NCBI GenBank assembly: GCA_009886465.1
Contig: QXZH01000131.1
Location: 1-36,134 of the forward strand
DNA length: 36,134 nucleotides
DNA from: Opitutaceae bacterium
GTDB taxonomy: Bacteria; Verrucomicrobiota; Verrucomicrobiia; Opitutales; Coraliomargaritaceae
Direction of reading: 5' to 3'
Both the position numbers and the translations under genes were made by a program. Numbering within the stretch: the first letter of the stretch is position 1; each line of letters starts with the position of its first letter. Positions 11,305-15,957 of this stretch are shown in pieces. The notes under the pieces are model-generated. The model had not been told where the DNA came from and made no database searches. It saw nothing but the letters and a program-made list of their open reading frames with translations.

Positions 11305-12225
11305 TTACCTCACAGCTTTCGTCTTTCGAACAAGCCTTGGCAACACACCATATTTAGGCGCAAAGAGCATCACAGTCGAAAAGATCAGCCCAGCCATTAC
11401 AGCCATCATTCCGGAGGTAGAGGTATCAGCAAAGCCGAACCAGGCTGGCACGATCAAGGCGCTCAAGTGCCCCAGCACAGCCGAACCCATTGCGATCAGC
11501 ACACTCAGCACAACCATCAACCAGAGCCGATCCGTGAGCAGATGCGCTGTCGCCGCAGGCACAATGAGCATCGCAATCACGATTATACTGCCCACGGCTT
11601 CAAAGCAAGCCACCGTAGTCACAGCCACGAGTGTCATTAAAAGATAATGCATTAGGTTTGAATTAATACCCATCGCCGTTGCTAGCTCTGCATCGAAAGA
11701 CGAGATGCGAAGCTCTTTAAAAAAGGCCACGACAAAGACTGCATTAAATAAGATGACTCCTGCCAAAACCAAGGCAGACCTAGGTACTTCTAGAAAGTAG
11801 CCATAGAGCGTAGGTCGCCAAACAACATCGAGTGGGGTCAACTCAATCGCACCATAAAGCACGCAACTCGGGTCGAGGTCGACATGGTCGGCTCCTTGCA
11901 CGATGAGCAAAAGCCCCAGCGCAAAGAGCGTCGTAAAGACGATTCCCATAGAGGCGCCCTCATCGACCTTACCAAAACGGCTGATCCACTGAGTAAAAAC
12001 AGCCGTCAAAACACCGACGATAGCCGCACCTATAAACATCGACAGGCTGGCACGTGCACCCGTCACCAGAAAGGCAATCGCCAAGCCCGGGAGCACCGCA
12101 TGGCTAATGGCATCGCCCATCATACTCATCTTACGAAGCACGAGGAAGTTGCCTAGCAAGGCACAAGCACCCGCCGCCAAAGCACCGATGACTACGATCC
12201 ATGTATCTATGCTATACCACTCCAT
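11305..12225 (-). CDS. Metal ABC transporter permease (ABC-3 family, TroD/YtgD position)
   Basis: This inner-membrane permease of 306 residues has about eight or nine hydrophobic helices. It belongs to the ABC-3 family that imports Mn, Zn or Fe ions. Family marks include LRKMSMMGDAISHAVLPG near residue 30 (the ATPase-contacting loop and conserved His) and AVGSIIVIAMLIVPAATA near 215. The segment HVDLDPSCVLYGAIE resembles spirochete TroD. It is the last gene of the four-gene importer run, 20 bases after the permease-repressor fusion, and probably forms a heterodimeric channel with it. The metal cannot be told from the permease sequence. Confidence 0.9.
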   Translation of the reverse strand: MEWYSIDTWIVVIGALAAGACALLGNFLVLRKMSMMGDAISHAVLPGLAIAFLVTGARASLSMFIGAAIVGVLTAVFTQWISRFGKVDEGASMGIVFTTLFALGLLLIVQGADHVDLDPSCVLYGAIELTPLDVVWRPTLYGYFLEVPRSALVLAGVILFNAVFVVAFFKELRISSFDAELATAMGINSNLMHYLLMTLVAVTTVACFEAVGSIIVIAMLIVPAATAHLLTDRLWLMVVLSVLIAMGSAVLGHLSALIVPAWFGFADTSTSGMMAVMAGLIFSTVMLFAPKYGVLPRLVRKTKAVR

Positions 12226-12245
12226 TTGTAATTTTTAATTCAAGA

Positions 12246-13595
12246 TCAGTCTCCTGGATGGATCGGGTGCGGACTCTGTGGCACGAGGCTACCGGCACTA
12301 CGGTAGGCTTGTAATTTATTCTCCAAGCGCGTGACCATTTTCTCACCAAGCACGTGCTCAACCATGTCGGCATCCCGGTCGACGCGACTCGTAGCAACAT
12401 CCGCATACTCGATCAGATACATTTCCCATAGTCGATGATTACGCGTGACTTGCGCCGCCTCGGCTAGTCCGGTTTTAGTTAATAAAATAGAATCCACTTT
12501 GTTGGGAGCTTCGACAAGCCCCTCATTATAAGCGCGACGTATATAGTCCCGTAGCTGCGTATCACTCCAAGTACGACGACCACGAATCTGGCGAAAAGGA
12601 ACTGTTCGAATATTCAATTCTTCGGTCACGCGACCTCCCTCCAAGATTTCGTAGAGCGCGCGAAGCAAATGCTGTCGTCCCATACGCTTTTTTAATTGCG
12701 ACTGCCGCAAGAAACGAAACATCACACCACGCTCCGTTCCGATGAGCATACTCACCACAAAAAAAAGTGCCGCGACAAGCACGATCACCGCACCTGCGGG
12801 GAGACGAGGGATGAAAGCACTCAAACTCGCACCAAGCCAACCACTGGCACCGCCAATCAGCGCAGAAAGCACTAGCATGCGGTCGAGCTGATTCGTCCAG
12901 AAACGCGCCGCCGCTGCAGGCGTAATCAGAAAGGCGATAATTAAAATCAAGCCGACCGCTTGCAAGCCAGTTACCGTCACGGCAGTGATGAGCGCGAGTA
13001 GTAGAATGTCGAGAAACTTAACTGGCCAGCCGAGCGCTGCCGCGAAAGTTTCGTCGAAACACAGCAGGCGAAACTCTTTAAAAAGCAACAATGAACAAGT
13101 AATCACACAAATTGTGACGAACACGAGGATTTGGAAATCGCTCATCACCATCGATGCTGTCTTGCCATAGATAAATGATTCCAAACCAGCCGCGCTCCCC
13201 TCGGGCATCGTCTGGATCACACCAAGAATAGCAATGCCTGCCCCGAAGAACACACTGAGTACGATACCCATCGCTGCGTCGTCTTTGATTCGTGTTTGCT
13301 CACGGATAAAGAGCACCGCCGCGCATCCGATTACCCCCGTGATGGCCGCACCCCCCAGTAATATGGGCAACGACTTTCCATCCCCACCCAGTGCAACCGC
13401 GAGGATGAAGGATAAACCAACGCCTGGCAGTGTCGCGTGCGAGAGTGTGTCCCCCATTAAGGAGCGCTTACGTAAAAGCAGAAAGCCACCCATGAGTCCG
13501 CAGGCACAACCCAGTAGCATCGTACAAATCACAACTAGGCGCGTGTTGTAATCGCGGAGAAAGAGAACGTTCCAAATGTCTGCTAACTCAGGCAT
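12246..13595 (-). CDS. Metal ABC permease fused to a DtxR/YtgR-type metal-dependent repressor
   Basis: This is a two-part protein of 449 residues. Residues of about 1-290 are an ABC-3 permease with LLLRKRSLMGDTLSHATLPGVG near 39-60 and AVGLILIIAFLITPAAAA near 213-230. Residues of about 305-449 are soluble and resemble a DtxR-family repressor: a winged-helix region (about 305-380, with SDTQLRDYIRRAYNEGLVE and ILLTKTGLAEA), then RNHRLWEMYL and ADMVEHVLGEKM. In DtxR terms His387 and Glu391 match His79 and Glu83, and Glu413-His414 match Glu105-His106, while the Cys102 position is Asp410. The end SPHPIHPG matches the family's PHG-PIP turn. The same fusion and gene order are known from Chlamydia ytgABCD, where the YtgR part is released by cleavage. 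Release here is inference. There is no stop or frameshift between the parts. Confidence 0.87.
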   Translation of the reverse strand: MPELADIWNVLFLRDYNTRLVVICTMLLGCACGLMGGFLLLRKRSLMGDTLSHATLPGVGLSFILAVALGGDGKSLPILLGGAAITGVIGCAAVLFIREQTRIKDDAAMGIVLSVFFGAGIAILGVIQTMPEGSAAGLESFIYGKTASMVMSDFQILVFVTICVITCSLLLFKEFRLLCFDETFAAALGWPVKFLDILLLALITAVTVTGLQAVGLILIIAFLITPAAAARFWTNQLDRMLVLSALIGGASGWLGASLSAFIPRLPAGAVIVLVAALFFVVSMLIGTERGVMFRFLRQSQLKKRMGRQHLLRALYEILEGGRVTEELNIRTVPFRQIRGRRTWSDTQLRDYIRRAYNEGLVEAPNKVDSILLTKTGLAEAAQVTRNHRLWEMYLIEYADVATSRVDRDADMVEHVLGEKMVTRLENKLQAYRSAGSLVPQSPHPIHPGD

Positions 13596-13631
13596 AGTGA
13601 TCTTGCATAAAACAGATACAACGATGCGCGT

Positions 13632-14444
13632 TCATCGCGACTGCACGACCTCGTTGGCTGCTTGGGTGAATAGCGTCAGCTTACCGCCGTAGGTGCGGCG
13701 GAGATTCTCTTGGGTAAAGACCTCGTCGGTTGGTCCCGCCGCGACAACGCGCATATTGAGCAAAACGGTCCAATCAAAATACTGTGTTACGGTGGCAAGG
13801 TCATGGTGTACGACGAGGACAGTCTTACCCCGCTTCTGCAATTCTTTGAGTAGTTCGACGATGGCACGCTCTGTCGCGGCATCCACTGCGGCGAAAGGTT
13901 CATCCATGAAATAGATATCCGCATCCTGCACAAGCGCGCGAGCGAGAAAGGTTCGCTGCTGCTGCCCTCCCGAGAGTTGGCTGATCTGGCGATGCGCGTA
14001 GTCCGCGAGCCCCACACGTTCAAGCGCCTCCATAGCAAGCGCCTTTGAGCGCTTGCTCACGCGACGGAACCAACCAAGTTTTCCATAGGTACCCATCGCC
14101 ACTACGTCGAGCGCACTCACCGGGAAGTCCCAATCCACACTCTCACGCTGCGGCACGTAGCCAACCCGCTTGCGCGCTTTTTTATAGGACTGACCGTAAA
14201 TACTAACCTCGCCAGAGCTGCGGGGAATCAGGTCGAGACAGGCTTTGATTAAAGTGCTCTTTCCCGCGCCATTGGGACCCACTATACTAACCAGTTTCCC
14301 TTCAGGAATCGAGAGATCGATATCCCAGATCACTGGTTTGCGGTGGTAGGCCACCGTAAGATCCCGGATCTTAAGCGGCAACGACTTTGAGGAGATCCCA
14401 GTCTGTTCAATTTGCATAAATGAATCGGATGTTTGGCTCATCAT
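13632..14444 (-). CDS. Metal ABC transporter ATP-binding protein (TroB/YtgB/MntB-like)
   Basis: This is the 270-residue cytoplasmic ATPase of the importer. It has Walker A GPNGAGKST, the Q-loop region GYVPQRESVDWDFPVS (the family's 'VDWDFP' form, typical of manganese and iron/zinc importers), the signature LSGGQQQR, Walker B DIYFMDEP, and the switch histidine in VVHHDL. The first 20 or so residues are a variable extension before the ABC domain. A second ATG one codon downstream, or MQIEQ, could also start it. It begins 7 bases after the binding-protein stop, so the two are translationally close. The permease fusion starts 36 bases downstream. Confidence 0.94.
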   Translation of the reverse strand: MMSQTSDSFMQIEQTGISSKSLPLKIRDLTVAYHRKPVIWDIDLSIPEGKLVSIVGPNGAGKSTLIKACLDLIPRSSGEVSIYGQSYKKARKRVGYVPQRESVDWDFPVSALDVVAMGTYGKLGWFRRVSKRSKALAMEALERVGLADYAHRQISQLSGGQQQRTFLARALVQDADIYFMDEPFAAVDAATERAIVELLKELQKRGKTVLVVHHDLATVTQYFDWTVLLNMRVVAAGPTDEVFTQENLRRTYGGKLTLFTQAANEVVQSR

Positions 14445-14451
14445 CGATCGA

Positions 14452-15447
14452 TTACTCGCCAGTCACTACTTCGCGAAAGCCCGCAGCTTGGCCGCCGAGA
14501 GCATTGGTGATGGTGGTGACGTTGCTATCAATCATACCGATGTAGGTGCCTTCGTAGGTGCCGGCTTGCCCCATCGCATCGGAGAAAAGAGATCCGCCAA
14601 TAATGACGTCATGCCCACGGGCACGGGCCCCCTCGACCAAGGCACGGACGTTTTTATCCGCCACCGAGCTTTCGACAAAGACGGCAGGGATCTGGCGCTC
14701 AACGATGAAGTCGACTAAATCTTCAAGATCGCGGACGCCCGCTTCAGACTCGGTGCTCATACCTTGGATACCCCTTACCTCAATACCGTATGCGCGACCG
14801 AGGTATTGAAAGGCATCATGCGCCGTGATGAGAACACGCTGCGACTCCGGAATTGTTGACATTACCTCTTTAGCGTATGCGTCGAGTGCTTCGAGTTGCT
14901 CGGCGTATACGGCAGCCTTACTACGATAGGCCTGGGTATTTTCAGGATCGTAGACGGCTAAAGTTTCCGCGACCACAGGTATCGCGCGGAGCCAGCCTGA
15001 GACATCCATCCACACATGCGGGTCGGTGTATGCCGAGCCGTCATCTTTTTCCAAAAGGTAGTCGGTCTCCTCAAGAATGGCTTCGGTCACGGCCTTGACC
15101 AGCTTACCCTTTGAAGCGATGCCTACGAGTACATCGGTCATTTTTCCTTCAAGCAGGAGACCGTTATAAAAAACCACATCGGCCTGACTCAACTTGATCA
15201 CATCGCCACGAGTCGGTTTGTAAAGATGCGGGTCAATGCCCTCGCCTATGATACCTTCCACCTCGGCGTAGTCACCAGCCAGGTTGCCGACAATGTCGGT
15301 GATCATGCCAACCGTGCAGACAATTTTGTAAGGCTCAGCAGATCCATCTGTATCGTAGCTAACATCCGGCTCTCCTGAGCAGCCCAAGAGGAAGTGGCTT
15401 ATCAAAAATACAGATATTGAGCAAAGTGTTGATCTATAGAAATTCAT
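14452..15447 (-). CDS. Metal ABC transporter substrate-binding lipoprotein (TroA/YtgA-like)
   Basis: This is the metal-capturing protein of the importer, a cluster A-I binding protein. I choose ATG 15447 (331 residues); the ORF track's 15462 start is a TTG that lies inside the inverted repeat described separately. The signal ends in the lipobox FLLGC with Cys23, so it is a lipoprotein. Metal ligands by family alignment are His in DPHLYKP, His in DPHVWMD, His in ITAHDAF and Asp in LFSDAMG. The third position is His as in TroA, rather than the Glu of manganese-specific PsaA. QGMSTESEA and FVESSVADKN also resemble TroA. Zinc, manganese or iron all remain possible. It is the first gene of the run. 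Confidence 0.92.
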   Translation of the reverse strand: MNFYRSTLCSISVFLISHFLLGCSGEPDVSYDTDGSAEPYKIVCTVGMITDIVGNLAGDYAEVEGIIGEGIDPHLYKPTRGDVIKLSQADVVFYNGLLLEGKMTDVLVGIASKGKLVKAVTEAILEETDYLLEKDDGSAYTDPHVWMDVSGWLRAIPVVAETLAVYDPENTQAYRSKAAVYAEQLEALDAYAKEVMSTIPESQRVLITAHDAFQYLGRAYGIEVRGIQGMSTESEAGVRDLEDLVDFIVERQIPAVFVESSVADKNVRALVEGARARGHDVIIGGSLFSDAMGQAGTYEGTYIGMIDSNVTTITNALGGQAAGFREVVTGE

Positions 15448-15483
15448 ACTTTGAATACTCAAAGTTATTATGACTTCAAAGTC
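15448..15483 (-). promoter_or_regulatory. Operator-like inverted repeat at the start of the metal importer operon
   Basis: Read on the minus strand, ACTTTGAGTATTCAAAGT (15465 to 15448) is a perfect 7-base inverted repeat with a 4-base spacer, ending right before the ATG of the binding-protein gene. A further copy of the half-site, inside GACTTTGAAGTC (15483 to 15472), lies just upstream. The size and symmetry fit a DtxR/MntR-class operator, and the only DtxR-like regulator in the window is fused to a permease in this same operon. No clear Shine-Dalgarno site lies between the repeat and the ATG. The function is inferred from position and symmetry only. Confidence 0.5.
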
Positions 15484-15529
15484 AAGATTGCAGGGGTATC
15501 ACATGCTAAGCCACTAGCTTAGTGGAATA

Positions 15530-15597: not shown

Positions 15598-15957
15598 TTA
15601 AGCAGCCTGAGCTTCTTTAGCCTTCTCGATGAGCACAAGGAAAGCAGCTTCGTCGTGAATCGCTAACTCGGAGAGTTGTTTACGATCCATGTCGATGTTT
15701 GCTTTCTTCAGCCCGTTGATAAAACGGCTATAGTTGATGCCATTGTTACGGCAAATCGCGTTGATACGGACGATCCAGAGTTGACGAAACTCGGTCTTCT
15801 TTTTGCGACGATCACGGTAAGCGTAGACTTCGGCGCGATCGACGGCGTCTTTAGCGTAGCGAAAAAGACGTGATTTATTTCCAAAATAGCCTTTGGCTTT
15901 TTTCAGAACTTTTTTACGACGAGCAAGCGTCGCGGGACCATTGGTGGCTCTAGGCAT
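15598..15957 (-). CDS. rplT: 50S ribosomal protein L20
   Basis: L20 is an early assembly protein of the large ribosomal subunit that binds 23S rRNA, and in several bacteria it also represses its own operon. The 119 residues match the usual length. The start [20 protein letters not shown] is the basic extension that threads into rRNA, and [20 protein letters not shown] followed by [17 protein letters not shown] is the conserved globular part. It follows rpmI with 97 bases between them and is closed by a strong terminator. Confidence 0.98.

Follow-up and report, generated by a model that had tools for sequence, protein, structure and literature searches.

The window analysed here, a 36,134-nucleotide stretch from a 1.84-Mb assembly of 143 contigs, carries the operon of a TroA-type Mn/Fe/Zn ABC importer of a marine bacterium. 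Four open reading frames were confirmed on the minus strand (11305–12225, 12246–13595, 13632–14444, and 14452–15447 or 15462); for the last of these, the ATG at 15447 is a more likely start than the TTG at 15462. The genes, the parts of the fused protein, and the inverted repeats at the promoter are listed below.

15471..15484: second inverted repeat, TGACTT-CA-AAGTCA, overlapping a −35-like TTGACT; uncertain meaning
15448..15465: operator-like inverted repeat, ACTTTGA-n4-TCAAAGT, abutting the start codon; single copy in the genome
14452..15447, minus strand: TroA-like metal-binding protein (SBP; ZnuA family), 331 residues from the ATG, PF01297 at 1.8e-75
13632..14444, minus strand: importer ATPase, 270 residues, PF00005 (ABC_tran) at 1.6e-29
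12246..13595, minus strand: C-type permease fused to a DtxR-type tail, 449 residues without internal stop, PF00950 and PF02742
12741..13595, minus strand: permease half of the fusion, residues 1–285, PF00950 at 19–285
12636..12740, minus strand: connecting helix of the fusion, residues 286–320 (helix 291–320 in the model)
12480..12635, minus strand: degenerate winged-helix segment of the fusion with an R[ST]W[ST] motif, residues 321–372, no PF01325 match
12306..12479, minus strand: metal-binding/dimerisation domain of the fusion, residues 373–430, PF02742
11305..12225, minus strand: second (D-type) permease, 306 residues, tailless, PF00950 at 1.6e-45

The best solved relative of the SBP is Treponema pallidum TroA (3.4e-78), whose HDAF and SDAMG segments are kept. 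The top NCBIfam models for the ATPase are Mn/Fe and Zn importer ATPases, none of them over its cut-off. The order of SBP, ATPase, fused permease, and permease is that published for ytgABCD (PMC5599777), as a preliminary description of this DNA had recognized. Directly upstream of the operon and on the same strand lies rplT (ribosomal protein L20; window 15598–15957), a neighbor that two other loci, L103 and L108, apparently share.

That description also held the third gene to be one unbroken permease–DtxR frame, and so it is: the ABC-3 profile PF00950 matches residues 19–285 (3.5e-62, 210.7 bits against a cut-off of 20.1), and PF02742 (Fe_dep_repr_C) matches residues 373–429 (1.9e-12, 47.4 bits against a cut-off of 27). 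The metal-site residues it named (His387, Glu391, Asp410, Glu413, and His414) and the PHPIHPG end are all present, and His309 and Asp406 fill further ligand positions, the former replacing Met10 of DtxR and Asp8 of MntR, the latter His98 of DtxR. By equivalence, the ligands fall into two sites, His309/Asp410/Glu413/His414 and His387/Glu391/Asp406. To speak of a full DtxR-type region with a winged helix (wHTH) was generous: a winged-helix-like topology is predicted (tail AlphaFold model, pLDDT 75.9), but PF01325, the DtxR wHTH profile, gives no match to the window tail at E ≤ 1. The top Foldseek hits for the tail belong exclusively to the DtxR/MntR family (MtsR, SloR, DR2539, IdeR, and DtxR; E about 1e-3, probability 1.0, TM about 0.5). 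In the full-length AlphaFold model (pLDDT 81.5), a long helix (291–320) comes after the final membrane helix (267–285) and continues into the first helix of the DtxR-type part, and the basic character of this connecting helix suggests that the tail is cytosolic. The D-type permease of the window ends 14 residues past the conserved Gly, as if a tail had been lost by a cut at the linker; relatives with D-tails exist.

We compared the locus with about 130 relatives. Six ligands (His387, Glu391, Asp406, Asp410, Glu413, and His414) are present in 105 of 105 C-tails, although loci L033–L112 were gathered with metal-motif patterns, so that ligand invariance among them is partly built in. A whole-protein search that used no motif patterns yielded 30 Verrucomicrobiota C-tails, and here His309 is kept in 27 and the other six ligands in all 30. 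In all 105 C-tails and all 22 D-tails measured, the first ligand (His309 in the window) lies exactly 19 residues after the conserved Gly that follows the last membrane helix (Gly290 in the window), and this spacing is also kept, where counted by eye, in divergent Planctomycetota and deep Verrucomicrobiota tails. The HRLWE histidine and the EH glutamate are 26 residues apart in all tails measured. The wHTH span between (His309–His387) ranges from 68 to 107 residues in C-tails, 57 to 74 in D-tails, and 68 to 73 in stand-alone regulators. As a released domain would have no need for such a register, the invariance of the 19-residue spacing indicates that the tail probably functions attached. Between species, the metal domain of the tails is 74% identical and the wHTH 39%, versus 60% and 44% in stand-alone regulators (rough values; some MntR-type frames are included in the stand-alone set). 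The tail wHTH did not prove less basic on testing: its net charge is not below that of stand-alone regulators.

The second, D-type permease is also DtxR-tailed in 22 loci (L024–L031, L083, L087, L091, L092, L094, L098, L101, L102, L105–L107, L109, L110, and L112), with a ligand pattern of its own and a DPHGxxIP motif. Ligands in these double fusions are of Asp/Asp type on the C-type permease and of His/Glu type on the D-type permease, and the two tails could pair as a heterodimer. Several D-tails have complete metal sites and a shortened wHTH. Two Planctomycetota loci, L161 and L163, have a D-type tail with a winged-helix-like segment and without the metal domain, next to a complete C-type tail.

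The fused permease was found in about 38 of the 289 Verrucomicrobiota and 37 of the 147 Planctomycetota genomes sampled (hand counts by match length and open frame). Scanning genome contigs with a tail alignment added members of Sumerlaeota and Desulfosarcinaceae among the best 80 matches, none of which is from Chlamydiota, and there was no match in the Waddlia and Simkania plasmid records. On these matches, the fusion reaches past the PVC superphylum. It had been proposed that the fusion either predates intracellular life or spread within that superphylum; its age and its wide occurrence among free-living bacteria mean that it did not arise with intracellular life, but neither is it confined to PVC. 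In two loci, L016 (genome G252) and L022 (G158), one TGA falls inside the fused whole-protein match, though the open frame spans nearly all of it. A decayed tail is found on an Azospirillum ramasamyi plasmid (L115, 4878–6101), its ligands replaced and the 19-residue spacing kept, with a separate mntR divergent upstream.

Within the C-type permease clade, 37 of 39 members are tailed, the exceptions being the decayed Azospirillum tail and a frame-shifted contig (L111), while tailed and tailless D-type permeases are mixed. In the metal-domain tree, which is unrooted, a branch with support 100/97 separates all 55 tails from the 34 stand-alone regulators. Because of this split, and because the C-type clade is tailed throughout, the tails look like one transporter-borne family, not a repeated capture of neighboring repressors.

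Stand-alone DtxR/MntR regulators accompany the fusion. At least one was found in each of the 42 fused genomes checked (hand count by open-frame length and position); the window genome has a canonical DtxR on contig C58. PF01325 is over cut-off in 40 of these 42 genomes, yet no fused frame in them matches it at E ≤ 1e-3, and even at E ≤ 1 it matches none of 29 C-tails and none of 8 D-tails, whereas PF02742 matches 29/29 and 8/8. Of the 71 fused loci whose flanks were long enough, 33 contain a stand-alone DtxR or MntR, which in about 29 adjoins the SBP gene, mostly divergently. The window operon has no adjoining stand-alone regulator. For L111, which has a divergent DtxR, the recognition helix of this regulator (VVPGTVTTMVKALAEAGLV) is near-equal to that of the C58 DtxR of the window genome (VVPGTATTMVKALSDAGLV).

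The operator-like repeat at 15448–15465 is also present in seven relatives, and a genome scan found no second site like it with one mismatch or fewer. A chance origin was considered and rejected, the expected number of copies in the window being 0. The repeat at 15471–15484 is not conserved in relatives, and its meaning is therefore uncertain. Where a DtxR-type regulator adjoins the fused operon, TTGA-n4-TCAA is found in 18 of 22 loci and TGTAGC-n4-GCTACA in none; where the regulator is MntR-type, the latter is found in five of seven and the former in none (18:0 versus 0:5; Fisher p 3e-5, kinship ignored). By this measure, operator class tracks the class of the stand-alone regulator and not the tail. 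The operator class of the window is also that of L111; in relatives, operators of this class lie in the gap that separates the operon from a divergently oriented stand-alone DtxR. The R[ST]W[ST] motif of the tail wHTH is kept in every operator class, and no co-variation of the tail wHTH with operator class was seen: identity among tail wHTHs is 0.43 inside the TTGA class and 0.34 inside the TGTAGC class, against 0.35 across the two, a gradient that reflects relatedness alone, since the metal domain shows the same one. A third class, TTAGCC-n2-GGCTAA, lies upstream of seven fused operons (L035, L037, L043, L048, L071, L079, and L092), with no regulator in the flank fetched.

These observations lead us to favor, with somewhat better than even confidence, a DtxR-derived cytosolic metal sensor that works attached and feeds back on transport, while a separate repressor controls transcription. 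Cytosolic metal would occupy both tail sites and switch the state of the domain; a rigid helix of fixed length would relay the change to the membrane helices or the ATPases, and import would slow as a result (feedback or trans-inhibition). The operon would be regulated at the level of transcription by other means, most likely by the C58 DtxR on the 15448–15465 repeat. MetNI and ModBC are precedents in which import is slowed by a cytosolic domain that senses the substrate and forms part of a transporter subunit (PMC10710835), and it is from the anatomy and the likeness to these systems that we infer the transport effect, its direction, and the identity of the metal; metal binding by the tail and rigidity of the helix are likewise proposed.

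The preliminary description took the tail for a repressor of its own operon. Metal-loaded, and either cleaved or membrane-bound, it would bind the operon operator and repress transcription in the manner of YtgR, for which there is experimental precedent in Chlamydia trachomatis (PMC5599777, PMC6504234, PMC7755916). Isolated YtgR binds and represses its own promoter (PMC5599777, PMC6504234), so a DtxR-type fold is able to work on DNA; the fold and the ligands are intact here, and a one-copy operator at the window promoter suits a dedicated autorepressor, which also counts as a point against an attached sensor. However, every tail tested lacks the wHTH signature, some tailed permeases have lost part of the wHTH itself, all 42 fused genomes have a stand-alone DtxR or MntR, and the operator, here of the DtxR-linked class, goes with that regulator; the invariant linker argues in the same direction. 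We consider such autorepression unlikely, and in the window genome, on the comparative evidence, repression of the operon by the tail is less likely than metal sensing and transport control by it. A released fragment of 16–18 kDa had been expected, whereas the product published for Chlamydia is about 28–30 kDa in size (PMC5599777, PMC7755916).

The fixed linker could be reconciled with the Chlamydia data if the attached tail throttled transport and a released fraction, or a promoter tethered to the membrane, added to the repression exerted by the stand-alone DtxR. In that case, the R[ST]W[ST] that C-tails conserve could make a DNA or protein contact, and if it is a divergent DNA-binding surface it weakens the case for a purely attached sensor. 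But no sequence feature of the window tail points to release, and the tail wHTH does not follow operator class; we consider a dual role of this kind quite improbable. Slightly less probable still is a non-regulatory tail that buffers metal, takes it from the translocation path as an exit chaperone, or stabilizes the permease pair. Tails on one or both permeases, their fixed register, and their nearly invariant ligands would fit such a domain; against it stand the sensor-type ligand layout and the retention of both DtxR sites in both tail types, and a simple chaperone would not need a dimerisation domain. That some tails are decayed (Azospirillum) or without a metal domain (L161 and L163) tells to a degree against the attached sensor, which we nevertheless prefer. 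The undiminished net charge of the tail wHTH, the absence of a regulator next to the window operon, and the uncorrected kinship behind the operator counts weigh on the same side.

The window tail has its fold and ligand positions in common with SloR, MtsR, ScaR, DR2539, IdeR, and DtxR; it differs from them in lacking a wHTH profile match and an SH3 domain, in its membrane anchor, and in having RLWE for RLIE in the ligand helix. The importer resembles T. pallidum TroABCD–TroR and other MntR/DtxR-controlled ABC importers, both in its SBP and in the separate DtxR-family repressor that lies near the operon in many fused relatives, but the fused loci additionally have a DtxR-derived tail on one or both permeases. 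In MetNI and ModBC, the sensing domain is on the ATPase, whereas in the window it is part of the permease and DtxR-folded; here a slowing of import is proposed by analogy.

In the literature searched, the permease–repressor fusion is presented as a speciality of Chlamydia from which its iron regulator originates, and we found no paper on DtxR-fused permeases outside Chlamydia. Since the fusion occurs across free-living phyla, with stand-alone repressors alongside and tails on both permeases, the original job of the tail was probably on the transporter, and protein-level feedback for Mn/Fe/Zn importers becomes directly testable. More tentatively, and with somewhat less than even confidence, we suggest an ancient class of importer control in which DtxR-fold sensors in one or both permeases, held in fixed register to the last membrane helix, would stop import; YtgR would then be such a sensor recruited late to transcriptional control, once the stand-alone repressor had been lost. 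It would show how a transport sensor could evolve into a transcription factor. By description, Chlamydia YtgCR (CT069) of ytgABCD likewise joins a permease and a C-terminal DtxR-type domain in one frame, within the same gene order (PMC5599777, PMC6504234). Also by description, YtgR is set apart as the sole known iron-dependent regulator of Chlamydia, its tail reported to be cleaved and DNA-binding, whereas in the window genome a stand-alone DtxR exists in addition to the tail, which is thus not the sole DtxR-type domain there, and the operator belongs to the stand-alone class.
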